Origin: Vandiemenella viatica
Lineage: Eukaryota > Arthropoda > Insecta > Orthoptera > Morabidae
DNA: 64,000 nt
Reading direction: 5' to 3'
NCBI GenBank assembly: GCA_031002005.1
Contig: JARYHS010011408.1
Span: 222,993,473-223,057,472 of the forward strand
The translations under genes were made by a program, and so were the position numbers. Below the pieces are notes generated by a model. That model was given only the letters and a program-made list of their open reading frames with translations. It was not told the origin of the DNA and ran no database searches. Shown here piece by piece: positions 30,592 to 63,775 of the stretch. The first letter of the stretch is position 1, and each line of letters opens with the position of its first letter.

Positions 30592-31495
30592 TACCAAAAG
30601 GAGTAGGACTGACTTTTTTTTAAAAAAAAGTATTGAAGATATCTTTACAATTCCTTAATCCTCTTCGAAATAGCACCCTTGGGCAGCTACACGCTTAGAA
30701 TTACGCTGCTGCGATTGGCCGTACGCCTTCTGGAAGTCAGATTCGTTGACGCTGTTGAGAGCCCTCGTCGATGCTGCTTGAATATCCTGAATCGAGTCAA
30801 ACCGCTGTCCCTTCAGCTGCCTTTTCATCTGTGGGAATTTAAAAAAAAGTCATTTGGAGCGAGATTGGGACTGTAGGCGGGGGCAACATGGCATCGCCGA
30901 ATCGGGCCAACAGTTGCCTTCCACATCCACTCGTCCAACGAAGGCTCGCATGAGCAAATCAAAGATCAAGACAATGCTGATCGTGTTTTTTGACCGTCGC
31001 GGGGTAATTCATAAGGAGTTCGTTTCCCCTGGGGAAACTGTCAGTTCGAACTTTTACGTGCAAGTGCTAGCCCGCCTGCGAGACCGAGTGAATCGCGTCC
31101 GACCAGTCATCTCCGCCAACTGGACTCTGCATCACGACAATGCGCCGTGCCAAGGCGCGCCGTCATCAGGCAACTGTTGGCCCAATTTGACATTGCCGCG
31201 TTGCTGCACCCCGCCTACAGTCCTGATTTGGCTCCGTTTGACTGTTTTTACTCACACGGATGAAAAGGCAGCTGAAGGGACAGCGGTTTGACTCGATCCA
31301 GGACGTTCAAGCAGCATCGACGAGGGCTCTCAACAGCGTCACCGAATCTGACTTCCACAAGGCGTACGGCCAATGGCAGCAGCGTAATTCTAAGTGTGTC
31401 GCTGCCCAAGGGTGCTATTTCGAAGAGGATTAAGTAATTGTAAAGATATCTTCAACAATTTTTTTTTTTTTTAATCAGTCCTACTACTTTTGGTG
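30592..31495. mobile_element. Fold-back mariner element
   Basis: The element is flanked by TA on both sides (30590-30591, 31496-31497). Its outermost bases are inverted repeats (ACCAAAAGGAGTAGGACTGA and its near-complement), but the inverted similarity extends about 245 bp (30592-30836 against 31253-31495). The right arm is the natural 3' end of a mariner transposase gene plus terminus. The left arm is an inverted copy of that same end where the normal 5' half should be. T/A runs adjoin both termini. Confidence 0.8.
30930..31433 (+). pseudogene. Mariner transposase, C-terminal half, frameshifted
   Basis: Plus-strand text: ARMSKSKIKTMLIVFFDRRG, VHKEFV-like IHKEFVSPGE, then NWTLHHDNAPC with the second catalytic Asp. 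A frameshift follows, then a PPYSPDLAP-like segment out of frame, then MKRQLKGQRFDSIQDVQA and SESDFHKAYGQW-like text ending CYFEED and TAA (31431). This is the mariner (DD34D) order. The N-terminal helix-turn-helix and the first Asp are missing, replaced by the inverted arm. Confidence 0.75.
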
Positions 31496-33169: not shown

Positions 33170-33177
33170 GTTTCAAC
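33170..33177 (+). other. 8 bp target-site duplication, left
   Basis: GTTTCAAC, identical to 36285-36292, abuts the left end of the palindrome. Confidence 0.8.
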
Positions 33178-36100
33178 TAGGGATTGCAATCCAGCAAAGC
33201 GGGATCCCGCAATCCCGCGGGATCCCGCATCATTAGACAGTCTGGCGGATCCCGCACAAAATTAAGCGGATCCGCAATCCGCAAAATCGGGCGGAAACGC
33301 TTGTCAGTATGCGTGACTCGTTGCCCCACTCGGTCTCTGTCGGATATTTTGCACTGTTTGCCTGTACCCTTCCAGTTGGCATTTGACTCATGTGAACAAG
33401 GGTTTGATTTTTGTTAACCTTCGTCATTCGTAAGTAAATAAATACACTTTTACGTATTCCTCAAAACTTACGTTTGTTTGGAGTACACATTTCTGTAATT
33501 TGAGTTATGGTGCGTATTTAGTACGATTTTCTAACTATATAATTATTTTTTAAGTGTTGCACAAGTTATCTGAACTACATGGTTACAGCTTTTTATTCAC
33601 GGTTTCATTATTCCCATTTTATGTATTTGCAGATGAAGTAATTGTGACAATTTCCTAATTTGCAGCGGAAAATTTGATTATTCGTTGATATGAAACTGAT
33701 GCTATCGTAATTTTAACGATCGCGTACCTATTTATTTAACAGCTATTAAAAAGAAATTGTATATCCTTTGACATATTGTTGTTTGGGCCGCTGCCTCAAT
33801 GCGTTTCTTTGACGAAAGCCACCTGCTTACATGTGCCACTCAGGCTTTCGATTAATCCCTCTTCTCCTTTTTATTATTTCGACTAAAGGTATTTTCACGG
33901 GTATATCGACGAATTGTGTTGTAGGAACACCGTACTTCGACGGCTGCCTCCGCCGTCTTCCTCACGTGTGTAATTTCGTGTGTTTGCAATGAAATCCGGA
34001 GATACAATCTATGAGGACTTCACTGCAATCATTCGCCGAGAAAGTCTCCTTTCTTACTAAAAAAAAAAAATAATTTCCACTCTAAAAACGTCGCTACGCC
34101 ACATAAGTAAACCTGAAATACTTGACAGTTTACGTGTTGGTGAGTAGTTTCTTTTGATAACATTGAATCATCTGTAATATCAATCAAGGAATCAGGAGAT
34201 ATAATAATGAGTCACGCAAAAAAAGCCAAGTCTCGTGCTTGTGCAGTGACAAAAAGTTATGAGATCTTGTTCTGAGCCAAGTCTACACTTTACACAGTAT
34301 ATTCACTTCACTTTGTAAAATGGGATGCTTTTCTCGGTGTTATGGAACGTTTATTTAGAATTAAAAAAAAAAAAAACTCTGGTAAGTTGGCCACTAATCA
34401 AACCATATTTTTAAACTTATGTGTTGAATTGAATGGCACATAATATGACCTAAAACTCAATATTTTCAATTTTTATTATTTATTTAAAAATTGGTTTAGA
34501 TTAAAAAACAAAAATGTAAAACCTTGAAATACACTTAATACACGCTAAAAAGTTTTAATGTCATTTTACCAATCAAAATATTGTTAACTGTTAATTTTTA
34601 TCATTTAACATTAAAAATTATTTGTTAATTTAATTATTATTTAATTTATTAACGTTTTAAATAACTATGTTTTAAATATATGCGTTAAAAAAACTGTTTG
34701 TACCAATCCCGCGGGATCCGTGCGGGATTTATACAAACAGTTTTTTAATGCGTATATTTAAAACATAGTTACTTAAAATGTTAATAAATTAAATAATAAT
34801 TAAATTAATAAATAATTTTTAATGTTAAATGATAAAAATTAACAGTTAACAAGATTTTGATTGACAAAATGACATTAAAACTTTTTAGCGTGTCTTAAGT
34901 GTGTTTCGAGGTCTTACATTTTTGTTTTTTAATCTAAACCAATTTTTAAATAAATAATAAAAATGGAAAATATTGAGTCGTAGGTCATATTATGTGCCTT
35001 AAAATACATCACGTAAGTTTAAAAATATGGTTTGCTTAGTGGACAAGTTACCAAAGTTTTTTTTTTTTTTTTAATTCTAAATAAACGTTCCATAACACCG
35101 AGAAAAGCATTCCATTTCACAAAGTGAATATACTCTGTAAAGTGTAGACTTGGCTCAGAAAAAGATCTCATAACTTTTTGTCATTGCACAAGCACGAGAC
35201 TTGGCCTTTTTTTTTGCATGATTCATTATTATATCTCCTGATTCCTTGATTGATATTACAGTTGATTCAATGTTATTAACAGAAACTACTCACCAACACG
35301 TAAACTGTCAAGTATTTCAGATTTACTTATGTGGCGTAACGACGTTTGTAGAGTGGAAATTATTATTTTTTTTAGTAAGAAAGGAGACTTTCTCGGCTAA
35401 TGATTGCAGTGAAGTCTTCATAGGTTGTATCTCCGGAATTCATTGCAAACACACGAAATTACACACGTGAGGAAGACGGCGGAGGCAGCCGTCGAAGTGT
35501 GGTGTTCCTACAACACAATTTGTCGATACACCCGTGAAAATTTCAATATAACTTTTTTTTACCTTTAGTCGAAATAATAACAAGGAGAAGAGGGATTAAT
35601 CTATAGCCTGAGTGGCACATGTAAGCAGGTTGCTTTCGTCAAAGAAATGCATTGAGGCAGCGGCCAAAACAACAATAAGTCAAAGGATATACAATTTCCT
35701 TTTGATAGCTGTTAAATAAATAGGTACGCGATCGCTATAATTACGATAACATTAGTTTCATATCAACGAATAATCAAATTTTCAGCCGAAAATTAGGAAA
35801 TTGTCACAATTACCTTATCTGCAAATACAAAAAATGGGAATAATGAAACCGTGAATAAAAAGCTGTAACCGTGTAGTTCAGATAACGTGTGCGACACTTA
35901 AAAAATAATTATATAGTTAGATAATCGTACTAAATACGCAACATAACTCAAATTACAGAAATGTGTACTCGAAACAAAAGTAAGTTTTGATGAATACGTA
36001 AAAGTGTATTTATTTACTTACGAATGACGAAGGTTGACAAAAAGAAACGCTTGTTCACATGAGTCAAATGCCAACTCTAAGGGTACAGCAAACAGTGCAA

Positions 36101-36284
36101 AATATCCGACAGAGACCGAGTGGGGCAGCGAGTCACGCAGACTGACACGCGTTTCCGCCCGATTTTGCGGATTGCGGATCCGCTTAATTTTGTGCGGGAT
36201 CCGCCAAACTGTCTAATGATGCGGGATCCCGCGGGATTGCGGGATCCCGCTTTGCTGGATTGCAATCCTTAATTGCAATCCTTA
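33178..36284. mobile_element. 3.1 kb near-perfect palindromic element (hAT-like)
   Basis: The element is an inverted repeat with arms of about 1.54 kb meeting at 34717. The stem runs almost to the centre (AATCCCGC 34705-34712 with GCGGGATT 34722-34729, loop of nine bases). The outer ends read TAGGGATTGCAATCCAGC, hAT-like in style, and are followed by clustered GGGATCCCGC palindromes; the same GGATCC/CCCGC vocabulary reappears at the centre. The 8 bp target duplication supports insertion by a hAT-type transposase. Arms differ by scattered substitutions and short indels. No transposase frame is present; ORFs in the arms are short and GC-box derived. The right end has an extra 13 bp tandem copy of the terminus. 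Confidence 0.85.
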
Positions 36285-36292
36285 GTTTCAAC
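36285..36292 (+). other. 8 bp target-site duplication, right
   Basis: GTTTCAAC, identical to 33170-33177. Confidence 0.8.
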
Positions 36293-44364: not shown

Positions 44365-45787
44365 TAGGGATGGGCAAAATATATCGATGTATCGATATTT
44401 TTTGTAAATATAATCAATATTTATCGCCGATATTTTTATGTTCGATATATCGATATTGTTTTTGGTGTATCGATTTTAGGCACCAATTCGATATTTTTTC
44501 TACGAACGCAATTCAGTATCCAATTTAATCGTTACATGTATATAGGAAAAATATACATACACATCCAATCTTCTGAAAGTGTCTTAAAAAGTGAATTCGT
44601 CGAAATATAACAGGGTGCAGAGGTTAAAAAAAGCTGTTAAATTTTAACAAATTTGACACAAGCTGTTAGTACCAGATGGAACTCCTGCTTTAATATGTTA
44701 GAACGATTTGTCAAACTCTCTGCAATTGTAGCTAAAATCTTAGCTACAAAAAGGCAGTCAAATATAAACACACCTGATATGGTTGCAACTTCACGGCTTA
44801 ATGTAATATATGTCCTTATTGTCCTTCTTGGTCCTTTCAAAGAAGCCACTGAAGAGGTTAGTTTTACAAATTATATGACTGCTAGCTTAGCCATTCCTGT
44901 TACAAATCTGATTCGACAAGTAACGGAACAAGGTACTCCTTCGTCCACTTTAGATTCACGGTAAAAGAGACTTTACTCCAAAGAATTCAAGAGAAATTAA
45001 GTCCTTTAGAAAGAAATAGATTCTTTACACCAGCTACCATTTTGGACCCTCGTTTTAAACGTATACACTTTACTTCTCCAATCGGTGTGTTAAATGCGAT
45101 TTCTACAATAAGTATTGATATTCGCTTGGAACTAAGACGAAGAGGGCAACGTTCTCCAGAAGTAAGGTCTACAGCAGCAACACAAGATATCGCAGATAAA
45201 ACATCAATTTGGTCCACACATGAAAAGCTATTATCCTTCATCACTACTGTTATGCAAGACGTTCCAAGCTCTGGCTCAGTTCCTAATGAGCTTAAGCAAT
45301 ATCTGGATCAACCATTAATAGACATAAAATCAGACTCAGTAAAGTTTTGGGTGAATTGCCAGCGCTCCAAGCCAGTGTTTTCGGAAATCGCGCTGAAATA
45401 CCTTATATGTCAAGCTTCTTCTGTGTCGTACGAAAGAGTGGCTTCTGCAGTCAACATAGCTGTACCGAACAACAGGAGTAGATTGACGGGGGAACACATA
45501 AAATAGAAAGTCCTTTTGATATCCATATCAGACGAATACTGGTTTGATTGATAGAAACAAATAACAAATAAAAGTTTGTATATTCTACCAGAGTCTTTAA
45601 TTTTAAGAATTTTCTTAAATATGTTGATGTATTTTATGATTGTTTTAAGATAATTACTCCCTTTAGCCAAAAATATCGAAATATCGATATATCGAAATAT
45701 CGATATTTTTCCCCCGATATATATCGATAGTGTTTGTAAATATCGTTTCGATATTTATCGATATATTTTTTTAAATGCCCATCCTTA
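44365..45787 (+). mobile_element. hAT element with ATCGATAT-rich ends
   Basis: Ends are inverted: TAGGGATGGGCA at the left and TGCCCATCCTTA at the right. Flanking 8-mers GATAGACG (44357-44364) and GGTATACG (45788-45795) agree at six of eight positions. Both subterminal regions (44379-44478 and 45661-45775) are dense in ATCGATAT/ATATCGAT motifs, likely transposase binding regions. The transposase is present only in its C-terminal half. Confidence 0.75.
44653..45506 (+). pseudogene. hAT transposase C-terminal part
   Basis: Frame 44653-44964 reads VSTRWNSCFNMLERFVKL, the hAT T-R-W-N-S block before the insertion domain, then VLIVLLGPFKEATEEVS. Frame 45042-45506 has LDPRFK-type MDPRFKRIHF, then a dimerisation domain: DSVKFWVNCQ, PVFSEIALKYLICQASSVSYERVASA and NRSRLTGEHIK where PSSSVPSERVFS is usual. 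One frame change near 44964 separates them. The N-terminal BED finger and the first catalytic Asp are missing. Confidence 0.8.
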
Positions 45788-49090: not shown

Positions 49091-49604
49091 ACTGGATGAA
49101 TTCAACGACTTCAAACCTGAGCATGCGTATAGAGGGGCAATGTTACTTCCACATGCCACCGGTCGCGTTTCTGAAGGTCATTTTGTTCGCGGTCTACAAG
49201 TATATGTGCATTTTTTTTTTTTTCAGCGGTGACATAAACCTTGCCACTTGCCCCGGACGGGAACTTAAAGGGGGGGGGGGCAAAATCGTATTTGAAGCGT
49301 GCAAATTTATGTCGTGGCGACTTGTTTTTTTTTTTATCTCCATTATTGTCCCGGGCGACAATCGGAGTGGGGAAAATGGGGCGGCAAACTAATATTCGAA
49401 GGGGCGCCAATCTCACAGTTTCTTCACAGGCTCGGAAAATTACTGGATCCCACACTGCTTAACCTCAGCTATGACGATGTGTAATAAGGCTGAATTCTGT
49501 GCGTTAGTTTTTGGATGATACGTGCAAAGAAAGACGCATATTAACTGAAAACATCCATACACACTCTCGCAGGCAGTTTGTGAACGTTGTGTTATAAATA
49601 ATTT
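49090..49604. other. Stretch without recognised feature
   Basis: G and T runs at 49270-49280 and 49326-49337. Short ORFs here have no domain. Confidence 0.35.
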
Positions 49605-51900
49605 TACAGATAACAACCATAGTGTTAACCAGAGGTATTGCAGGCTTCATCACTGCCTATACCATGAACCGACTATCATCTGACCATTCTCCAGTCCTGA
49701 TTGACATAGATGTCGGCTCATGGAGACCAGAAACGACTAGCCAAATTAACTTCAATAAGACGAACTGGGTGGATTTCCGTAACATGATCACGGAATCCCT
49801 TCATCGCCTAAGACCAATCAACGCAAGACAAATTGAGACTGCAATAAAACAAATCTCTACTACTATCGTGGAAGCAGCAAATAGATCTACTCCTTCCACA
49901 GTAACAAGACCTCAATCCCGTCAACTCCCGCCACAATTGCTAGCGCAGATAAAGCACAAAAACAGAGTGGCGAAGGAATGGCGATTAACACGGCGCCCAG
50001 ACACCAGGCGTCTCCTAAATCGTCTCCAGCGAGAGCTGAAGGCTGCGCTACAAGAACACAGAAATAGGGAGTGGTCAGCACGTCTGGCCTCACTCAACAT
50101 AAATGACGGCAATCTTTGGGTTGAGACCAGGCGCTTTACAAAACGGCGTGCCAGACTTCCCCCTCTCCACGGCGAAAGGGGCCTCGTCTTCAGCAATTTG
50201 GACAAAGCCAACGCACTGGCAGATCATTTTGAAAAACAGTTCAGGCCAGCCCAAGACGACGACGAAGAAGAATCTGCCACTATCCGAAGAAGGTTAGCTC
50301 GCTTCCTAGCCGCTGAAGATGACGGATATGTGATCGACGAAATCTCTACTGAAGAAGTTCGACGCATTTTAACACAACTACATCCCAGGAAGGCTCCCGG
50401 CTCTGATACTCTGGGAAATCAACTACTGAAAAATCTTCCACAACAGGCTGTAGAACACATAACCAACATCTTCAATGTTATACTCAGCAGCCAACATTAT
50501 CCCAGTTGCTGGAAGCAAGCGATAGTGATAGCTGTGCCCAAACCGGGTAAGGACAGCCTATTCCCACAGAATTACCGCCCCATAAGCCTGTTATCCTCGC
50601 TCAGCAAGGTCTTCGAGCGACTCTTACTCAGACGACTGGAAGCTCATATACAGAGGGAAAGTATTATTCCGGACTTCCAATTCGGGTTTCAGAAGAGACA
50701 TTCTGCTACTCAACAGATCATGAGAATAGTTGAAAGAGCCACGACAACCTTCAACTATCGCGGCTACTGTCCGCTAGTGCTACTCGACGTGGCGAGGGCT
50801 TTTGATTCTGTTTGGCACAGCGGCCTCCTGTACAAACTTTATGAGCAGGGACTCCCCGGCCCACTCGTGAAGCTAATTCGAAGTTACATATCAGGTAGAT
50901 CCTTCCGAGTGAGGGTAGGTATGGATCTATCAACACGTCGCCCCATAAAGGCAGGAGTACCTCAGGGATCGGTACTAGGACCCGTACTTTACAACTTGTA
51001 TACAGCTGATATACCAGCTCCAACTACAGTCCGTACCGCCCTTTACGCAGATGATACGGCTTTCTTCACGGCACATAGGTGTAAAGCCACTGCCATCCGC
51101 AGACTACAACAGGTTCTACAGCAAACTGAAGCCTGGGCCAGAAGGTGGAGAATTACCCTCAACACTGGAAAAACCCAAGCCATCATGCTGACGAGGCGCC
51201 TGGGGAAGCGGGATCGCCAGCAAAATCGCACCAAGAAGCTGCTCCTAAATGGAGAAGAGATAGAGTGGTCAACCACTGTTAAATACCTCGGTGTCACTAT
51301 GGACTCCCGGTTAACCTGGAAAAGCCACATCGAGGACACTCGACGTAAAGTCGCAGCTAGGCTCCAACAGCTTTACCCGATCCTCAATCGGGACAGCTCA
51401 TTATCAGCCGGTACCGGAGTCAGTATATATTGTAGTCTAGTTCGCCCGATAATTGAATATGCGTGCCCGGTGTGGGGCTACGCATCAAAAACTGGGTTGC
51501 GAAGACTACAAACAATGCAAAACAGAGCGCTTCGGCGGGCACTACATGTCCCGAACCGGTTCCCGACAGCAGACCTGCATGAAGCCGCAGGTGTCCCGCT
51601 GCTCCAAGGAAGAATATTGGCGATAACCAAATCCTTCTACAGAGCTGCAAGAACGTCTACTAATCCACTAATTGCAAATCTCGGACAGTATAACACTGCA
51701 TATGACAAACACGCAAGGCCATTGTCCATCCTAACAAGAAATTAAAACAACGAAAGAGCAAAATTAAAGACATACCATTAACAAAAGACACTCAACCTGA
51801 AAGTCTGAAGGAAATGTCCAGAGACAAAACCTTCTCCTAAACTGCTTGAAAATATAAAAAGCAGAAATTGCTCTCGGGCGAACCAACAACTTTAAAATGC
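49605..51900 (+). mobile_element. Jockey-type LINE, 5'-truncated with intact ORF2 remainder
   Basis: The copy begins inside the endonuclease C-terminus and carries an unbroken frame to its natural stop. The ~150 bp after the stop is AT-rich 3' UTR. The 3' boundary is masked by the P-like element that starts near 51907. No target duplication was found. Confidence 0.75.
49622..51745 (+). CDS. Jockey-type LINE reverse transcriptase (ORF2, 5'-truncated)
   Basis: 707 codons without a stop; the first residue is not a natural start, and the frame enters from a stop near 49600. Residues 18-27 (LSSDHSPVLI) are the last endonuclease motif. The linker runs to about 240. The reverse transcriptase follows: PRKAPGSDTLGNQLLKNL, QAIVIAVPKPGKD, NYRPISLLSSLSKVFERLL, QFGFQKRHSATQQI, LLDVARAFDSVWH (first Asp), AGVPQGSVLGPVLYNLYTADIP, and YADDTA at 475-480 (catalytic pair). 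VKYLGVTMDSRLTWKSHI and a C-terminal region with VRPIIEYACPVWG complete it. It has no RNase H, as in Jockey elements. The open frame implies a recent insertion. Confidence 0.9.
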   Translation: MLTRGIAGFITAYTMNRLSSDHSPVLIDIDVGSWRPETTSQINFNKTNWVDFRNMITESLHRLRPINARQIETAIKQISTTIVEAANRSTPSTVTRPQSRQLPPQLLAQIKHKNRVAKEWRLTRRPDTRRLLNRLQRELKAALQEHRNREWSARLASLNINDGNLWVETRRFTKRRARLPPLHGERGLVFSNLDKANALADHFEKQFRPAQDDDEEESATIRRRLARFLAAEDDGYVIDEISTEEVRRILTQLHPRKAPGSDTLGNQLLKNLPQQAVEHITNIFNVILSSQHYPSCWKQAIVIAVPKPGKDSLFPQNYRPISLLSSLSKVFERLLLRRLEAHIQRESIIPDFQFGFQKRHSATQQIMRIVERATTTFNYRGYCPLVLLDVARAFDSVWHSGLLYKLYEQGLPGPLVKLIRSYISGRSFRVRVGMDLSTRRPIKAGVPQGSVLGPVLYNLYTADIPAPTTVRTALYADDTAFFTAHRCKATAIRRLQQVLQQTEAWARRWRITLNTGKTQAIMLTRRLGKRDRQQNRTKKLLLNGEEIEWSTTVKYLGVTMDSRLTWKSHIEDTRRKVAARLQQLYPILNRDSSLSAGTGVSIYCSLVRPIIEYACPVWGYASKTGLRRLQTMQNRALRRALHVPNRFPTADLHEAAGVPLLQGRILAITKSFYRAARTSTNPLIANLGQYNTAYDKHARPLSILTRN

Positions 51901-52070
51901 ATTTATACCAGGGGGGGTCCAACTTGTATGCGCAGACCAAGCTCAAATTTCTGGCTCTGCGCATGACGTCACCGCAGGAGCACTATGTGTTGTCGGAGCA
52001 TTTGAGTATACGGGCGCGTAGTGTATTTCGATTGTGATTTTGCTTATAACTTGGTTTAAATTGTGCTAAC

Positions 52071-52589
52071 ATGCTTGGATTTGCTGTCGCGGGCTGTACA
52101 ACTTACAGCAGAAAAACTAAAGGTACTGGTATCACGTATCATACCTTTCCAAAGGATTTACAGCTCAGGAAAATATGGGTTCAAAAGTGTTATCGTAAGG
52201 ATGATTTCAGTACAGCAACAGCAACTGTGTTTTCGCAACATTTTGTGCCAGAAGATTATGTTCGTGATTTGCAAGCTGAGTTACTAAATTTACCTGCAAA
52301 GAAAATACTTAAACCAGGTTCTGTGCCGTGTGCTAATCTTCCTATTCTGATGTTTAATGCTCATTGCACGTCTACTGCCATTCAAACTTCACCAACCAAC
52401 ATCAGTCAAAACCAAAGCAGCAGAACTGATAGATATCAAGCCAGATATGTGAGGAAAAGAGCTGTTAAAACCCTTGCCGGTGTGTCGCCTAAAAAAACAA
52501 AAATGGACCAATGCACTTCAACCTCAAATATTGATTCTGGTGAAGTTATGTTACTAAAAAGACGTGTGAAAGAACGAGAAGAGAAATAA
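52071..52589 (+). pseudogene. THAP-domain N-terminus of P-like transposase
   Basis: The frame starts MLGFAVAGCTTYSRKTKG and continues YHTFPKDLQLRKIWVQKC, FSQHFVPEDY and LKPGSVPCANLP, which aligns with the THAP zinc finger (C2CH) through the AVPS-like box. Ligand positions are telling: Cys9 and His57 are kept, but the first Cys is Phe4 and the third is Phe54. Two of four zinc ligands are therefore lost by Cys-to-Phe changes (TGY to TTY). A basic segment (SPKKTK) follows and the frame stops at 52589. Confidence 0.75.
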
Positions 52590-52792
52590 AAAAAACTGGA
52601 AGCTACATGTTTAACTTTGAAGATTAAGAACAAATATCTGCTTGAGGAATTGAGAGCGACTTCCCAGAAACAGAGCTCAAGAATAATATCAAGAAATTAG
52701 TACACAACGAGGCGACAAAAGTACTGAAAAGCATATTTTCGGAAAAGCAGATGAAATGTTTACTAACTTAAAAAAAACTTAAATTAGTCCAC

Positions 52793-52838
52793 AAACCGAA
52801 GGTTGGTTGGGTCCTCCCGAAGAAGGCATACTAAGCCA
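52793..52838 (+). repeat. Dispersed repeat, 'CCGAAGGTTGGTTG' family
   Basis: AAACCGAAGGTTGGTTGG, then TCCTCCCGAAGAAGGCATACTAAGCC, matches the start of the repeat at 22579. Here it splits the P-like coding region. Confidence 0.6.
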
Positions 52839-52839
52839 T

Positions 52840-54044
52840 TGTGTCAGGGAAAGAAACGTGTTAAGTGGAACAGTGATGATATTTGCAAAGCAGTGACATT
52901 ACGTGCTATTTCCAAAAAGTGCTATTTGTTTTTGAGAAATAAGCTTCATTCTCCGCTGCCAGGTTTGTCAACTTTGAAACGGAGTAACTCCGGTTCTTTT
53001 CGCTGTCTGACAGGTGTGTAGCAAGATGTAATACAGCTAATGAAAGCTCAGGCATTAACATTTTCCTACGCTGAACGTGTGTGTGTCTTGTCATGTGGAT
53101 AGTAGCATTGTTTACGACCAGAAAGAAGATCGTATTATAGGGCCGCATAGTAATGTACAATTTGCTATGATTCGTGGTCTTTTCAGTGGCTGGAAACAGC
53201 CCATATACTACGATTTCGACGTTCAGATGACAGCGGCATTGTTGAAATAAATTATTTGCAGCATTGAAAACGCCGGCTACAATGTTGTTGCTATTGTTGC
53301 TGATCTCGGCACAAAGAATCGCTGTGTTTGGAAAGAACTTAATGTAAGCGATACAAATACGTGCTTCCAGAATCCGAGAAATACTTATAAAAGAATATGG
53401 GTGTTTTCAGATGTTCCTCATCTATATAAACTGCTAAGGAATCATTTTATTGATGACTGGTTTATTTTTCCGAGTGGCAAAAAAGTTGTGAAAACAGTGG
53501 TTGAAAAATTAATTGAATTGGATAGTGGTGAAATAAAAGTGTGCCCCAAGCTTATCAGGAGCGCCAGATGGAATAATTGGCATTGCAACTGTTTTCTAAC
53601 ACCACAGCACAGGCAATACGCTATTTCATGCCAGAAGAAGAACACGTTGCTAAATTTTTCCAGCTTGTCAACGACTCATTTGACATTATGAATAGTAGAG
53701 TACTAAAATCTGGATGGATAGAAGTACTGTCACGCGGAAGTCTTATTGTACCATCCGATGACTGGTTAAATAAAGTGTCACAATTTGAACTAATTTTTAT
53801 GGATGTGAATGGTTGTGATTTTATGTTGAAAGAAAAGAATATTGTTAAAAGAATTTGGGCCAAAATAATAGAAAAATATCCAGAGGTGCCAGTGGAAGTG
53901 ATAAAACTCTATGTAAGAACAAGAATGTTTATTCGTTTACGTTACATGAATGCAAAACTTAAAATGCAAAAGGCAGCAGCGGCACATAGGAGGAAATCTC
54001 GTCAATTCCTCGCATCGTCCGTTCAAGATGCGGAGAAAAACTAA
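52840..54044 (+). pseudogene. P-like transposase catalytic and C-terminal region, frameshifted
   Basis: Frames give WNSDDICKAVTLRAISKKCY and YLFLRNKLHSPLPGLSTLKR (P-element coiled region), then SSIVYDQKEDRI and MIRGLFSGWKQPIYYDFD, VVAIVADLGTKN, VFSDVPHLYKLLRNHFIDD (the D-x-PH-x-K-x-x-RN block) and, after a shift near 53600, SNTTAQAIRYF, a GTP-binding-insertion-like stretch and KRIWAKIIEKYPEVPVEVIKLYVRTRMFIRLRYMN. The bases around 53090 appear to lack the F-D-E-M segment that carries the first catalytic Asp. Confidence 0.75.
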
Positions 54045-55561: not shown

Positions 55562-56975
55562 CACTCCTGGAAATTGAAATAAGAACACCGTGAAATCATT
55601 GTCCCAGGAATGGGAAACTTTATATACACAGTCCTGGGGTCAGATACAACACATGATCACACAGACAGAACCATAGGCACATAGACACAGGCAACAGAGC
55701 ATGCACAATGTCGGCACTAGTACCGTGTATATCCTCCTTTCGCAGCAATTCAGGCTGCAATTCTCCCATGGAGACGATCGTAGAGGTGCTGGATGTAGTC
55801 CTGTGGAACGGCATGCCAAGCCATTTCCACCTGGCGCCTCAGCTGGACCAGCGTTCGTGCTGGACGTGCAGACCGCGTGAGACGACGTTTCATCCAGTCC
55901 CAAACATGCTCAATGGGGGACAGATCCGGAGATCTCGCTGGCCAGGGTAGTTGATTTACACCTTCTAGAGCATGTTGGGTGGCACGGGATACATGTGGAC
56001 GTGCATTGTCCTGTTGGAACAGCATGTTCCCTTGCCGGTCTAGGAATGGTAGAACGATGGGTTCGATGTCGGTTTGAATGTACCGTGCACTGTTCAGTGT
56101 CCCCTCGACGATCACCAGAGGTGTACGGCCAGTGTAGGAGATCGCTCCCCACACCATGATGCCGGGTGTTGGTCCTGTGTGCATCGGTCGTATGCAGTCC
56201 TGATTGTGGCGCTCACCTGCACGGCGCCAAACACACATACGACCATCATTGGCACCAAGGCAGAAGCGACTCTCATCACTGAAGACGACACGTCTCCATT
56301 CGTCCCTCCATACACGCCTGTCGCGACACCACTGGAGGCGGGCTGCACGATGTTGGCGCGTGAGCGGAAGACGACCTAACGATGCGCGGGACCGTAGCCC
56401 AGCTTCATGGAAACGGTTGCGAATGGTCCTCTCTGATACCCCAGGAGCAACAGTGTCCCTAATTTGCCGGGAAGTGGCGGTGCGGTCCCCTACGGCACTG
56501 CGTAGGATGCGACGGTCTTGGCGTGCGTCGCTGCTGTCCAGACCCAGGTCGACGGGCTCGTGCACCTTCCGCCGACCACTGGCGACAACATCGATGTACT
56601 GTGGAGACCTCGCGCCCCACATGTTGAGCAATTCGGCGGTACGTCCACCCGGCCTCCCGCATGCCCACTATACGCCCTAGCTCAAAGTCCATCAACTGCA
56701 CATACGGTTCACGTACACGCTGTCGCGGCATGTTACCATTGTTAAAGACTGAGATGGAGCTCCGTATGCGACGGCAAACTGGCTGACACTGACTGCGGCG
56801 GTGTCCAACCGCTGCGCAGCTAGCGCCCTTCGACGGCCAACACTGCTGTTCCTGGTGTGTCCGCTGTGCCGTGCGTTTGATCATTGCTTGTACAGCCCTC
56901 TCGTAGTGTCCGGAGCAAGTATGGTGGGTCTTACACACCGGCGTCAATGTGTTCTTATTTCAATTTCCAGGAGTG
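55562..56975 (-). mobile_element. Tc1-type transposon with perfect 27 bp termini
   Basis: CACTCCTGGAAATTGAAATA and seven more bases are repeated exactly in inverted form at the right end. TA flanks are at 55560-55561 and 56976-56977. The 1.41 kb length and single transposase gene are typical of a complete Tc1 element. The termini are identical, so the insertion is recent. Confidence 0.9.
55750..56731 (-). pseudogene. Tc1 transposase with one frameshift
   Basis: The start codon at 56731 (MPRQRVREPYVQLMDFELGR) follows the terminus sensibly. The N-terminal frame carries the paired helix-turn-helix (GWTYRRIAQHVGREVSTVHR, then ARRPGSG as the AT-hook-like linker). A deletion of a few bases near 56525-56545 shifts into the frame of RRILRSAVGDRTATSRQI. 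The catalytic domain is otherwise whole: FSDESRF (first Asp), QQDNARPH (second Asp), WPARSPDLSPIEHVWDWM (Glu), a DD34E triad. Total about 327 codons. One lesion in an otherwise complete gene. Confidence 0.85.
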
Positions 56976-58326: not shown

Positions 58327-61300
58327 TCAGATGTTAATCTGCCCATCTCTCAGAAAGTCTATAAGTTTTATGTATATCTTCGCGTGTCTCGACGCTAGAA
58401 GAGTGGTTATCGATGTGGGCAGAGGCACCTGGAGTGATAACAAGCTGTTTAACAGTTTTTGGCTGTGGGTGTGGTATTTGCTGCATGCAAAAAATATGTG
58501 ATTTAAGTCTGCTTCTTCCTCCTCGTCCGCGTCGCATTGTGGTGAGTCAACCACGCCTATTCTATACAAGTGGCTGGGGTAAGTACCGTGTCCTAGTCTC
58601 ATTCGTATTATAGATGTTATATATTGTCTTTTTGCTCTGAAGTCTTGAAACCAAGCCTTTTTTGGGATTGTTGGTTGTATGGTAGCATATTGTTTACCTT
58701 TGTGATACGATGTTGATGTCCAGAATTCTTGGAGGTCTTGTTTCAACTTCTGTTTCACTCTGGGGAGGAAGTCTATGTAAGGTAGGGGCAAGAATAGAGG
58801 CGTGCCTTCTGTAGCTCCGCTTTTAGCGAGGGCGTCTACCAATTCATTGTATATGAGACCCCGAGTGTCCTTTCACCCACATGAATCTTATATCTGGAAC
58901 TTGGTTTGATACTGCGCACTCGATGATGTCCATAATGTAGCTGTTGCTGCTAAGGTTCCACTGTGGGTTCTGGAGCCGCTGTAGTGTACTTCTGGAGTCA
59001 GTTAGGATCAGAATTTTCTCAAAGTTTTGTTCCATCCCATAGTTGATGGCTTCCTTAATGGCTAGTATTTCAGCAGTGTAGATTGAGGTCTCCGGTGGGA
59101 GTGAAAAGGATGCTCCGTAGTTGTTGTCTGGGCAGTAGTAAGCGCATCCTACACTGTGATCTGTTTTCGAACCATCCGTATAGATGTGGGTGAATTCCCC
59201 CCAAATTCGCCGATAAAAGGAGGGAGGCAGATTTCGGATTTAGTTGGGGTGGTAGAATATAGGTTTGCAGGGTTGGAACAGAGCATTCATAGGGTTTCGA
59301 AAAGACTGGTAAGGCGGGTTCCTTCGTTATAAGCGGCTCAGTGAGTCTGAGGTTGAAGTAACTGTACACCAGGAGCGGGCATCGTGGAGGGCGTTTTTCT
59401 CCGAAGGTTCCCATGCTGTTTGTTAAGAGTTGGAGTTTCGGGAGTAAAGGATGTTGTGTGAAGGAGAGCCTTTGGAGTAAGTATTTGTCCGCGAGGTATT
59501 GACGGCGGAGTTCGAGTGGAAGCTCGCTGGTTTCTATGAGTAACGCGTTCGTGGGGGAGCTTTTCATGGCTCCTATGCAGATGCGAAGAGCGCGATACTG
59601 TAGTTGATCTAGTTTCCTTATGTGCTGTTGCGGCGCATTGCCATACACGATGCTTCCATAGTCTATTCGTGATCTAATTAATGACCTGTAGAGTAGTAGG
59701 CAGGTCGCAGGATCTGCACCCCACCATGTGTGAGCTGCTGCGCGAAGTATATTTAAGGAGCTGCTCGTTCTGGCTATTATATCCTTTACATGTGCGATCC
59801 AGGAAAGTCTGCTATCCAAGATGAGTCCAAGGAATTTTACTGTTGATCGTACAGGAAAATCGTATTGTCCAAGTGAATGTGTTCCAGCGAGAGTGGGCAT
59901 CTTTTACGAGTGAACACAACTACTGATGACTTTTGTGGAGATAGGGATAGGCCTTGTTGCAAAAGCCATTGGTGACTTTTGTTACTGCTTCTGAGATCCT
60001 CCGGAGTATCATCCAAAAACACATGGAGTAGACATAGATGCAGATGTCATCAGCATACTGAAGGATCTTGATATGTAACCCCAACAATGTCTCTAGATCA
60101 CTGGTGTATATAGTATACAAAAAGTGGGCTTAGTATGGAACCCTGCGGTATGCCTCGATTTATTGTGAAAGGTCCAAATAGAGCGTTGTTCTTCTTACGA
60201 ATATAGATGGTGCGTTGATGCAGGGGAAGAGTATATACCTTGCAATAGATGTTTCGGGAGGCCCACCTTTTGTAATTTCCTCATGAGGATCGGTAGATGT
60301 ACGTTGTCATAAGCACTCGAGATATCAAGAAAACAGTCCCAGTAAGTATCCGTGGTTATTTATTGCGCGTTCGATATCTGTCGTGAGTATGGCTAGGCTG
60401 TCCATGGTACTACGGGCTTTTCGGAAACCAAATTGTGATGCTGGAAATTGTTTGTTGCGTTCCATCCACCATTCAATGCGATGTTTCCAGAGACGTTCTG
60501 CTACTTTATAGACGCATGAAAGCAACACGATTGGGCGGTATGAAGATGGATCTTTGGGGTCCTTTCCGGGCTTGAGAATTGGAACGATTACTTGAGTAGT
60601 CCATGTATCTGGGAGTTTGTTTGTTGACCACAGCTGTTGTATCAGCTGTAGCAGGTAAATTCTTGCTCTTGGGGACAAATGACGCAACATGGCGTAATGT
60701 ATGTTATCATATCCTGGGGCGGTGTCGCTGCATGAGGCTAATACCCTGTCTAATTCGTGCAGTGAGAAGGGTCTTCGGAATATGTTATGATCGATGTCTT
60801 TTTCCTCTGGGTTGATCATACTCTCGAAAGGAGGTAAGGTGACCGATGGAGGGGCAAGTACTGTGGCAAGGTCTTCGACATCACAGGTGATTGTTGAAGT
60901 AGGTGATGGTTTCTTCTTCATTTTTCTGATCATGTTCCATATTTCCTTTGTTGGCGTGTCCTTAGATATTTTCGAGCAATAGGTTTTCCAGCTGTTCCGT
61001 TTCTGCTGCTTAAGGAAACGTTTAACTTCCGCGTCTATTTTCTTATATTCCGTGTATGTCTCCCATGTGGATTGTTGTTTGTATTTTTTAAATACTAAAC
61101 GTCTCCTGGCAATCATTTTTGAAGCTTCTGGGGACCACCATGGAGCAGGTGTAGCTGGTTTCCTCACATACGAGCGGTTTTGGGGGATCGATATGTTTGC
61201 TGCTTGATTGATTAAGGACATGAAAGAGTTGTAATTTTCCTCCGGTGAGGCATTTTGTACACAAGTGTGGAGCAATGAGTCTACAATTTTGGAATATCGA

Positions 61301-62019
61301 CACCAGTCTGCTTTATGTATGTCCCATTTGTTTTTCGGGAAGCTTACAGTCTGTTTTATTGGGGTTAGATAGGAAATTATAATGGCCAAATGATCCGACC
61401 CCAGCGTGTACGGTACGATACTCCATTGGAAGTCACTTGAGATGGATGGAGAGATTAAAGTTAGGTCCACTGCTGAAGGTCGGTGTCCTGGTCTTGGGAT
61501 AAGAGTGGGTGAACCGTCATTGAGGATTATCAGGTCGTGGTCGTCCAATAATTCTTTAACTGCTTGGCCCGGTAGGTCGTCATATACACATCCCCAAGAT
61601 GTGCTGTGTGCGTTGAAATCACCGCAGAGGATATAGGGAGGCTTTAGTTGTCTGAGTAGGTGGTGCCATTCCTGTAGATCTATCTGCGTGCGTGGGGGAC
61701 GGTAAATAGAAATAACAGTGAGATTGTAAACTGGCAATACGATCTGGGCAGCGACGGCTTGGAACTGATGAATATTGGTTAAGTCTAGTTCAATCTTTCG
61801 GAAATCTAGAGTAGTTTTAATCAGTAGTGCCACACCGCCGTGGCCGTCTATACGATCTTCTTGGAGAGTTGAATATCCCCGAAACTTAGTTGCTTGGCGA
61901 AACCAGGTTTCGCTGATGGCAGCTACTGATATTTTTTGAGAGACTAACGCTTGTTGAAGGGTTTCTTTATTTGAGATCGCTGATCTGGCGTTCCACTGTA
62001 GTATCTTAAATTCCTCCAT
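58327..62019 (-). pseudogene. I-type LINE ORF2 (endonuclease, RT, RNase H), frameshifted
   Basis: ORF2 starts at 62019, overlapping the ORF1 end by 14 bases. Residues 1-230 are the apurinic-type endonuclease (LQWNARSA, ISETWF, CGDFNAHSTSWG, LGSDHLAI). The reverse transcriptase begins near residue 430 (SDTAPGYDNIHYAMLRHL, IVPILKPGKDPKD, YRPIVLLSCVYKVAERL, QFGFRKARSTMDSL). An extra T near 60329 shifts the frame before FLDISSAYDN; further shifts occur near 60240 and 60110. LQYADDICIYV (60046-60057 region) has the catalytic pair. RNase H follows (SIYTAEILAIKEAINYG, LILTDSRSTLQ, WVKGHSG, VDALAKSGA). The C-terminus ends at 58327. All domains are present; only indels break it. Confidence 0.85.
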
Positions 62020-63775
62020 TTGTTGCGAATAAGTTTGTTAGAAGCTGACGGATGACACCAGTTGGAAGTGATCGGTCGGGTGCGGAGAGAGCTTCGGATA
62101 TAAAATATGTAATTAACTGCAGGAGTTGTTCAACTAATCCTTCATGTCTTGCATGGTTGGTTGTATTATGATATAGAGGAGGATATGGATTTTGGATCAT
62201 CGGAGTGATGGGTAGTTGTGCTGGGATATACGGCTTTTGTTGCCAAGGTGGGGTGGCATGGATGTGTTGTGGATTTGTGGAAGGGGTGACAGAAGGTCTG
62301 TCAACTCTAGGTTGTATGGGTTTGCCGGGAGGTGGTGAGATTGGATTGAGATTTGGGGCGGATGCTGCTGCGTTTTCTTGTCGCGGCCAATGGCTTTGTG
62401 GCCTCATTTCTTGCGCTGCGTTTTCCTGTTGAGGTATAGGCTGATGTGGAGGCCTCTGGGTGATAGGTGGAAATTCCTCTTCGTTCTTATGGGAGGGTAT
62501 TGCTGTAGCCATATGTGCATAGCTGTGGAGTCTTGGAGAAGAGATTGTTTGGAGACCTGGATCGTTATGAGCTGCGTTATATTTTAACTGTTTTTGTTGT
62601 TGATATGCCGGGCATGTTATATCTGTGGCGTAATGGGGGCCGTGGCAGTTAACGCATCTGATGGTGGTAATGTCGGAGCAGCCTTCCATGGGGTGGGGTC
62701 CTCCGCACTTATTACATCTAACAGCGCTCCGGCATTGCTGTATCTTATGTCCAAAGCGTAAGCATTTTTTGCACATGATCACTGGTGAGATGTAGGGTTC
62801 TACAGGACAACGCATGCCGAGGATGTAAACATAGCTTGGTAGACACTGAGAGCGGAATGATAACAAACACACCGGTATGGCTACGCGTTCTTCGCTTTCC
62901 TGGTGCGAGCGTTTCCTCGTGAAGCGTTTAACTGATATCACGGGATAGGCTGACTGGATTTCCTCCTTAATTTCATTTTCGCTCAATGATGTGTCGACAT
63001 TTCTGATGATTCCAAGTTTATGCACAAGAAAATTAGGAATATAGGCTTCCAAATTTTTGGAAGTCATTATGGGTAGTTGAACCAGTAGGTTCGCTGCAGC
63101 CGCTGATTTCATTTCGATTCTTATTCTGTTTTTCCCTAATGAGTTGATGTTTATTACATCCTGCTTGATTTGAGGGTTATGTTGGAAAAGCAACTTCCCG
63201 ACTGCCATTGGATGGAGCATGCCAACATTTTTCTCCATGCTCTCGACAAATACGTAAAAAGGTCCTATGTCTGTATCATTATACCGATTGTTTTTACTTG
63301 GATGTTTTTTAGTTAGGGTTGCTGGAGGTATGTTCACTGGAGGAGAGGACTGACTATTTTCACCTTGGTAAAGGGGATTGGAAATGCTTTCCTCTATCAC
63401 TACGTTATTCGTCACTGCTGTACGTAATCTTTTACTTGGTTGCCCGCCGTTATCTAAGATATTTGCTCTGCTTTCGTCTACTGGGGGAGTAGCCATGGCT
63501 GGAGGTGTACCTGTTGTCCTGTGCTGCAGGTGAGAGCTGAGCTGGATGGCAGTGCTGTTTTCTTCCCCAGTTGAGAAGTCCATCTGGTCGTTCTCGTCTG
63601 GTGGAAGCCCTTGCTGGTAGGGCGTCTGTGTTGAATTTGGTATTAGGGCTGCACACATCTGGTTGTCATCCCCGTTGTGGCAGGCCTCCAGAGCTTGGCG
63701 AATGGATTGGCCCGTGTCCCGGACCGTCTCCATTGGGAATTGCCTCCCTACCCTGTTTTTCCCGGCACACGACAC
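62006..63775 (-). CDS. I-type LINE ORF1 (RNA-binding, CCHC zinc knuckles)
   Basis: 589 uninterrupted codons. The first ~190 residues are polar and low-complexity (Q, S, P, N rich). Residues about 195-320 look like an RRM-like fold region (FYVFVESMEKNVGML, IRIEMKSAAAANLLVQ, YIPNFLVHKLGIIRNVD). Three CCHC knuckles follow at about 333-385: CKKCLRFGHKIQQC, CNKCGGPHPMEGC and CVNCHGPHYATDITC. The tail is proline/glutamine rich. ORF1 proteins of I elements bind LINE RNA and are needed for retrotransposition. The ATG at 63775 sits 135 bases into the element, a sensible 5' UTR length. Confidence 0.85.
   Translation of the reverse strand: MSCAGKNRVGRQFPMETVRDTGQSIRQALEACHNGDDNQMCAALIPNSTQTPYQQGLPPDENDQMDFSTGEENSTAIQLSSHLQHRTTGTPPAMATPPVDESRANILDNGGQPSKRLRTAVTNNVVIEESISNPLYQGENSQSSPPVNIPPATLTKKHPSKNNRYNDTDIGPFYVFVESMEKNVGMLHPMAVGKLLFQHNPQIKQDVININSLGKNRIRIEMKSAAAANLLVQLPIMTSKNLEAYIPNFLVHKLGIIRNVDTSLSENEIKEEIQSAYPVISVKRFTRKRSHQESEERVAIPVCLLSFRSQCLPSYVYILGMRCPVEPYISPVIMCKKCLRFGHKIQQCRSAVRCNKCGGPHPMEGCSDITTIRCVNCHGPHYATDITCPAYQQQKQLKYNAAHNDPGLQTISSPRLHSYAHMATAIPSHKNEEEFPPITQRPPHQPIPQQENAAQEMRPQSHWPRQENAAASAPNLNPISPPPGKPIQPRVDRPSVTPSTNPQHIHATPPWQQKPYIPAQLPITPMIQNPYPPLYHNTTNHARHEGLVEQLLQLITYFISEALSAPDRSLPTGVIRQLLTNLFATNGGI

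Follow-up and report, generated by a model that had tools for sequence, protein, structure and literature searches.

A 3.1-kb palindrome in the Vandiemenella viatica genome, probably formed when one hAT-like monomer inserted into the terminal repeat of another

Introduction

Among hAT transposons, the classical double Ds of maize has its copies in inverted orientation. According to the portions of the literature drawn on here, nested Ds elements are rarer, probably because of the chromosome-breaking properties that they acquired, and the account of B73 reports that no chromosome-breaking double Ds was detected (PMC3260210). The Mu killer locus of the maize Mutator system, as described in part of its literature, is an inverted duplication of a DNA transposon in which both ends derive from the same element end, and it has been proposed as a source of long hairpin RNA (PMC3440606). 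Foldback-like Galileo elements are characterized, in the excerpt consulted, by very long inverted arms and form a many-copy family (PMC4168063). Template switching and gap repair have also been described in transposons, again as given in a partial source (PMC8277862).

Here we analyze a palindrome in a 64,000-nucleotide stretch of the genome of the morabid grasshopper Vandiemenella viatica (assembly GCA_031002005.1, contig JARYHS010011408.1, forward-strand positions 222,993,473 to 223,057,472), referred to below as the window. All positions are those of the window unless stated otherwise.

Anatomy of the palindrome

The initial annotation had described a near-perfect palindrome flanked by an 8-bp target duplication. 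Self-comparison of the arms pairs position 33178 with 36284 and continues inward to a nine-base unpaired centre, so that the palindrome and its coordinates hold (Table 1). The arms (33178-34712 and 34722-36284, ~1.54 kb each) pair as far as their innermost segments, 34688-34712 and 34722-34746. The description as near perfect is apt for this extent of pairing but not for identity, since global alignment of the two arms gave 1,444 identities, 86 mismatches, and 47 gap columns, or 94.4% identity over ungapped columns. The palindrome is bracketed by GTTTCAAC, and its right end carries a 13-bp tandem (ATTGCAATCCTTA twice, 36259-36284) that was absent from the initial annotation.

Table 1. Features of the palindrome, with window coordinates and the observations on which each assignment rests
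Feature	Position	Strand	Basis
Target-site duplication 1, left copy, GTTTCAAC	33170..33177		Same 8-mer at 36285-36292; single in empty-site paralog L067; fits NTNNNNAN
Unit 1, hAT-like non-coding monomer	33178..34712	+	Left end at 33178 (TAGGGATTGCAATCC); right end cut off within subterminal array; aligns over its full length, as far as the array, with single genomic monomers
CCAATCCCGC, 10-bp repeat joining both units	34703..34712	+	Direct repeat in facing right ends, also hairpin stem in the monomer; from monomer right-end comparison and hairpin fold
Nine-base palindrome centre (loop)	34713..34721		Arm pairing; 51-mer across the centre matches the genome once (the window itself, 2 mismatches)
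Unit 2, inverted second monomer, right end truncated	34722..36271	-	Left tip at 36257-36271 (GGATTGCAATCCTTA); CCCTA expected, base 36269 deviates
ATTGCAAT, read as target duplication 2, core of unit 1 right terminal repeat	36272..36279		Partner copy would have been in the deleted centre; both copies kept as ATTGCGAT at L050/L054
CCTTA, putative remnant of unit 1 right tip	36280..36284	+	CCTTA ends the right tips of 19/19 monomers with the right end seen
Target-site duplication 1, right copy, GTTTCAAC	36285..36292		8-mer match to left copy; empty-site paralog

An assembly artefact, such as a hairpin read or a collapsed repeat, would be conceivable for a palindrome known from a single assembly sequence. 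However, the difference of 5.6% between the arms (86 substitutions plus indels) and the non-palindromic flanks argue against a hairpin-read origin, and the GTTTCAAC target duplication agrees with an empty site found elsewhere in the genome; we consider the probability of such an artefact to be very low.

Empty site and relative dating

The empty site was recovered with a query joining the two flanks, which had one full-length match, 92% identical, inverted, and located 111 kb away. This flank paralog (L067, C6490:222914300-222916800) has no insert and carries a single GTTTCAAC, bearing out the proposed 8-bp target duplication. The insertion is thus younger than the flank duplication, provided that this site did not lose an insert in the meantime. 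Between the two flank copies, 77 of 2,423 columns (3.2%) are different, compared with 86 of 1,526 between the arms (P = 0.0002); with CpG sites removed, the corresponding values are 67 of 2,284 and 64 of 1,384 (P = 0.01). The arms would thus have diverged before the insertion, which argues for two separate copies. This dating argument would be weaker if gene conversion had reduced the divergence of the flank copies, as is conceivable.

Divergence of the arms before insertion would also fit a palindrome that was formed elsewhere and transposed here ready-made as one unit, and the 8-bp duplication does enclose the entire palindrome. We nevertheless regard that origin as very improbable, because the exact centre matches the genome only in the window, with no donor seen, and because its ends are both of the left type apart from a 5-bp remnant of a right tip.

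The monomer family

The left arm was searched against the window's own 3.72-Gb assembly, 40 of 4,338 candidates were scored, and 20 of these loci (L009-L028) were extracted. At every one of these 20 loci, drawn from the 40 scored candidates, both arms match one and the same stretch, so that each locus holds one unit, and no palindrome was present among them. The monomer starts with TAGGGATTGCAATCCAGC and finishes with GCGGGATTGCAATCCTTA. Flanking 8-bp repeats (7 or 8 of 8 bases matching) were found at 18 of the 20 loci, where the monomer spans 1,485 to 1,654 bases, and at five of six additional loci. Its left end has 5,847 genome matches at up to 3 mismatches, versus none in the control. The left tip is TAGGG at 19 of 20 loci and TAGGA at one, the right tip is CCTTA in all 19 monomers whose right end was seen, and subterminal arrays of the GCGGGATCC type are present. 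A single arm is an ordinary unit, a common non-coding hAT-like monomer of about 1.5 to 1.65 kb.

The longest reading frame in the monomer consensus has 83 codons, and no Rfam family reached its gathering score anywhere in the window. The Pfam search covered 10 open reading frames (ORFs) of the window, all lying outside the palindrome. The target preference of hobo, as given in part of a published account, is NTNNNNAN (PMC3276498); among 22 duplications of the monomer family, T occurs at position 2 in 16 and A at position 7 in 17, with both in 11. The monomer tips were also compared with those of Ac/Ds, reported as C/TAGGGATGAAA in the portion of the source used here (PMC3260210). Short terminal repeats of the C/TAGGG type, 8-bp duplication, target bias, and subterminal repeats together fit a non-autonomous member of the hAT superfamily.

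A separate hAT-like element lies at 44365-45787 of the window; it has TAGGGATGGGC and GCCCATCCTTA as its ends, which are rich in ATATCGATA, has flanks that match at 6 of 8 bases by eye, and includes an ORF with a hAT dimerization domain (44886-45506; Pfam E value, 1.5e-9). This ORF was considered as a helper for the monomer and rejected, as the apparent ends of its element (TAGGGATGGGC...GCCCATCCTTA, by eye) differ from the monomer ends.

Several other transposon sequences were recognized in the window: a mariner-type fragment (Transposase_1) at 30791-31291 (plus strand); a non-LTR retrotransposon ORF with reverse transcriptase at 49598-51745 (plus strand) and another with reverse transcriptase and endonuclease at 60325-62037 (minus strand); a Tc1-like transposase ORF (DDE_3, HTH_Tnp_Tc3_2) at 55750-56667 (minus strand); and, at 52050-54044, an ORF with a THAP domain and, after it, a weak TNP-like match under the Pfam cut-off, which together look like a decayed P-like element. 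A reverse-transcriptase search had a best match of 57% identity, and the four named organisms noted among the matches listed are arthropods. With respect to the assembly as a whole, contigs C7, C8, C4537, and C7729 measure 388,957,591 to 388,957,675 bases, which is odd for separate chromosomes and perhaps reflects a length cut in the assembly.

The palindrome centre

Monomer right ends carry arrays such as CCAATCCCGCACGGATCCCGCGGGATTGGCGCAAATCCC, and the palindrome centre consists of CCAATCCCGC fused to the inverse of this array. Two earlier search patterns for the centre were unspecific (2,452 plus 2,547 places and 481 plus 480 places), as they matched ordinary monomer right ends; of the patterns tried, only a 51-base pattern separates the palindrome from monomers. 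At up to 3 mismatches across the whole genome, this pattern occurs at one place, the window itself (2 mismatches), and at none in the control. The palindrome itself is therefore not an amplified fold-back family, and the earlier suggestion of a fold-back element, if taken to mean a mobile unit that has itself multiplied, finds no support. Its companion proposal, two head-to-head copies of one hAT-like unit joined at GGATCC/CCCGC-rich ends, agrees with the genome search, in which single-arm copies with the same termini are plentiful, and with the nature of the centre, a truncated form of the subterminal array at the right end of this unit. The centre could have formed by either of two routes, namely, deletion between direct copies of CCAATCCCGC in facing right ends or fold-back at a 10-bp stem with a 9-nt loop.

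Right end of the palindrome and the self-insertion model

Read on the plus strand, the right end is CTTTGCTGGATTGCAATCC(T)TA - ATTGCAAT - CCTTA - GTTTCAAC, an order that can be read as the unit 2 left tip followed by an 8-base segment, the terminal five bases of the unit 1 right tip, and the outer target duplication. The 8-base segment, ATTGCAAT, is self-complementary, forms the core of the terminal repeat of the family, and agrees with the hAT target NTNNNNAN, suggesting that unit 2 was inserted in the right terminal repeat of unit 1. We therefore consider it likely that the palindrome consists of two monomers head to head, unit 2 having inserted inverted into the right terminal repeat of unit 1, followed by deletion of the central junction. 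The initial annotation had spoken of fused units; two head-to-head copies are indeed the best reading of the arms, but simple fusion explains the join less well than insertion into a terminal repeat and central deletion.

The proposed sequence of events would begin with unit 1, a non-autonomous hAT-like monomer, inserting at this site and duplicating GTTTCAAC, a step shown by the empty site. Unit 2 would then have inserted in the opposite orientation into the ATTGCAAT core of the unit 1 right terminal repeat, as the right-end anatomy suggests and as a complete arrangement at another locus illustrates, to give a double element in which the units lay head to head and their right-end arrays face to face. 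The highly palindromic central junction would subsequently have been deleted between the 10-bp direct repeats CCAATCCCGC, and the product would be a 3.1-kb fold-back with a left-type end on either side. Because both outer ends are left-type apart from the 5-bp right-tip remnant, further movement of the palindrome as one unit seems doubtful. Two points of the right end run contrary to self-insertion: the inner tip is CCTTA where a left tip should be CCCTA (a difference of one base, 36269), and the proposed second duplication survives in one copy only. A TAAGG left tip does exist at another locus of the family (L040/L065).

Related loci elsewhere in the genome

A pattern representing one family tip inside another matched 20 places in the genome at up to 2 mismatches, versus none in the reversed control, and 19 of the 20 were read. 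The family's own tip was the target in about 12 of these 19, representing at most 11 events, as L040 and L041 have common flanks; the target is ambiguous at L053 and L057, and L059 and L060 show GTTGCAAT. Three further loci (L056, L061, and L063) have family insertions at ATTGGAAT adjoining CAGGG, inside another repeat and with a common flank, perhaps reflecting a recurrent target in that repeat or one insertion copied along with it.

The inner unit at L050/L054/L066, 92% like the consensus, sits in inverted orientation within the right repeat of an outer unit with 74 to 81% matches; it is bracketed by ATTGCGAT, with GTTTCATC/GTTTCACC outside. Judged from this arrangement, the locus reads as the uncut stage, an intact inverted nested pair. 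L051/L055 is a 2,679-bp fold-back with TTCCTGGC on either side and TAAGG-ATTGCAAT-TAGGG at one end; its right-end order is that of the window palindrome, its central deletion differs, and it reads as an end product of the same kind. L047/L068 can be read as two nested units in head-to-tail order, one of whose junctions has partly collapsed, and the far end of L048 (L069) is rearranged. L040/L065 holds a single unit with a doubled tip and ATCACAGC on either side, so that a doubled tip alone is no proof of a nested pair; this locus may have arisen by collapse of a nested pair or simply by duplication of a tip.

ATTGCAAT beside a tip occurs at 26 genome places, versus none in the control. Reading 16 of the 26 yielded five events in the family's own ends, four or five elsewhere, and one ambiguous. 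As a rough rate, own ends were targeted in 5 of the 10 events classified from these 16 of 26 places, versus ~5% of sites, a share estimated from 12 non-core ATTGCAAT occurrences in 198 kb and the 5,847 left ends.

Relationship of the arms and possible in-place copying

In a comparison of 29 rows, the window arms have one exclusive shared substitution, and 35 and 33 substitutions are private to one or the other arm. A sister relationship of the window arms is neither demonstrated nor rejected by the trees (p-AU = 0.645 in one tree and 0.301 in the 29-row tree); in the former, which took in L033 (wrong orientation) and L034 (lacking the right end), both excluded from the 29-row tree, the constraint uniting the window arms scored the higher likelihood. 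The left arm was placed beside L010 with middling support (82/74 in a further tree and 87/81 in the 29-row tree). The L055 arms, in contrast, are 98.6% identical, form a 100/100 clade, and have 16 exclusive shared substitutions; being sisters, they suggest that one unit was copied there or that the arms were homogenized.

These comparisons bear on the fold-back of one copy in place, by which a broken right end would fold at the CCAATCCCGC-9 nt-GCGGGATTGG hairpin already present there, prime copying back to the left end, and rejoin the original right tip via the GGATTGCAATCC core common to both terminal repeats. The sister arms of L055 speak for such a process, as does the palindrome centre, which corresponds exactly to the monomer's 10-bp stem and 9-nt loop, and the inner and outer tips are both CCTTA, as expected of a right tip. 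However, in-place copying leaves the 13-bp tip duplication unexplained, the single exclusive shared change versus 35 and 33 private ones would require the copying to have happened soon after the unit arose, and the arms are more diverged than the flank paralogs. We thus consider it unlikely; the way in which the right end parses, the sister loci, and the comparisons of the arms with each other and with the empty site place it below self-insertion.

Hairpin potential and implications

Folded in silico, the central 1,441 nt form one hairpin (-976 kcal/mol). A transcript forming a long hairpin, as had been suggested, is structurally possible on this evidence but would not be perfect, as the arms are 94% identical. 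The locus looks like a one-off relic and no new kind of mobile element, and we judge that, as a relic, it may have a small chance of a silencing role.

If the proposed self-insertion is right, the palindrome would illustrate, together with its empty site and two comparable loci that represent other stages, how ordinary single elements can give rise to a long transposon palindrome when one inserts into another and the centre is then deleted. The case further suggests that terminal repeats can themselves serve as targets for insertion; if transcribed, palindromic loci of this kind would be ready-made hairpin triggers silencing their own family. More speculatively, and with a low expectation of being right in full, the self-complementary core ATTGCAAT may be a favoured hAT target, which would lead members of the family to insert again and again into their own termini; the resulting head-to-head pairs may then shed their facing inner ends, disarming a chromosome-breaking double element and leaving candidate hairpin loci for small-RNA silencing, with several of these stages seen in one genome.

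Comparison with known systems

The titles and abstract openings listed in searches of an open-licence library held no account of a hAT insertion into its own terminal-repeat core, although one may still have been published. In the parts of the sources consulted, three described systems resemble the window palindrome in some respects. Galileo and its relatives likewise have long inverted arms, but they are many-copy, whereas the exact centre of the window palindrome occurs once. The cod elements are non-coding derivatives of hAT elements whose long inverted repeats are arranged in tandem (PMC12368964); they differ in their internal units of 167 to 169 bp, and section 8 of that report describes no insertion into the element's own terminal repeat. 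Mu killer is likewise an inverted duplication between two ends derived from one element end, but Mutator is not a hAT system, and Mu killer includes transposase sequence, whereas the window unit is non-coding.

The nearest known system that the window palindrome resembles appears to be the maize double Ds, in which two copies of one hAT element are nested and inverted, as proposed here. Relative to the double Ds, the putative pair in the window would differ in targeting the core of the terminal repeat and in having its facing inner ends deleted, leaving a continuous palindrome.
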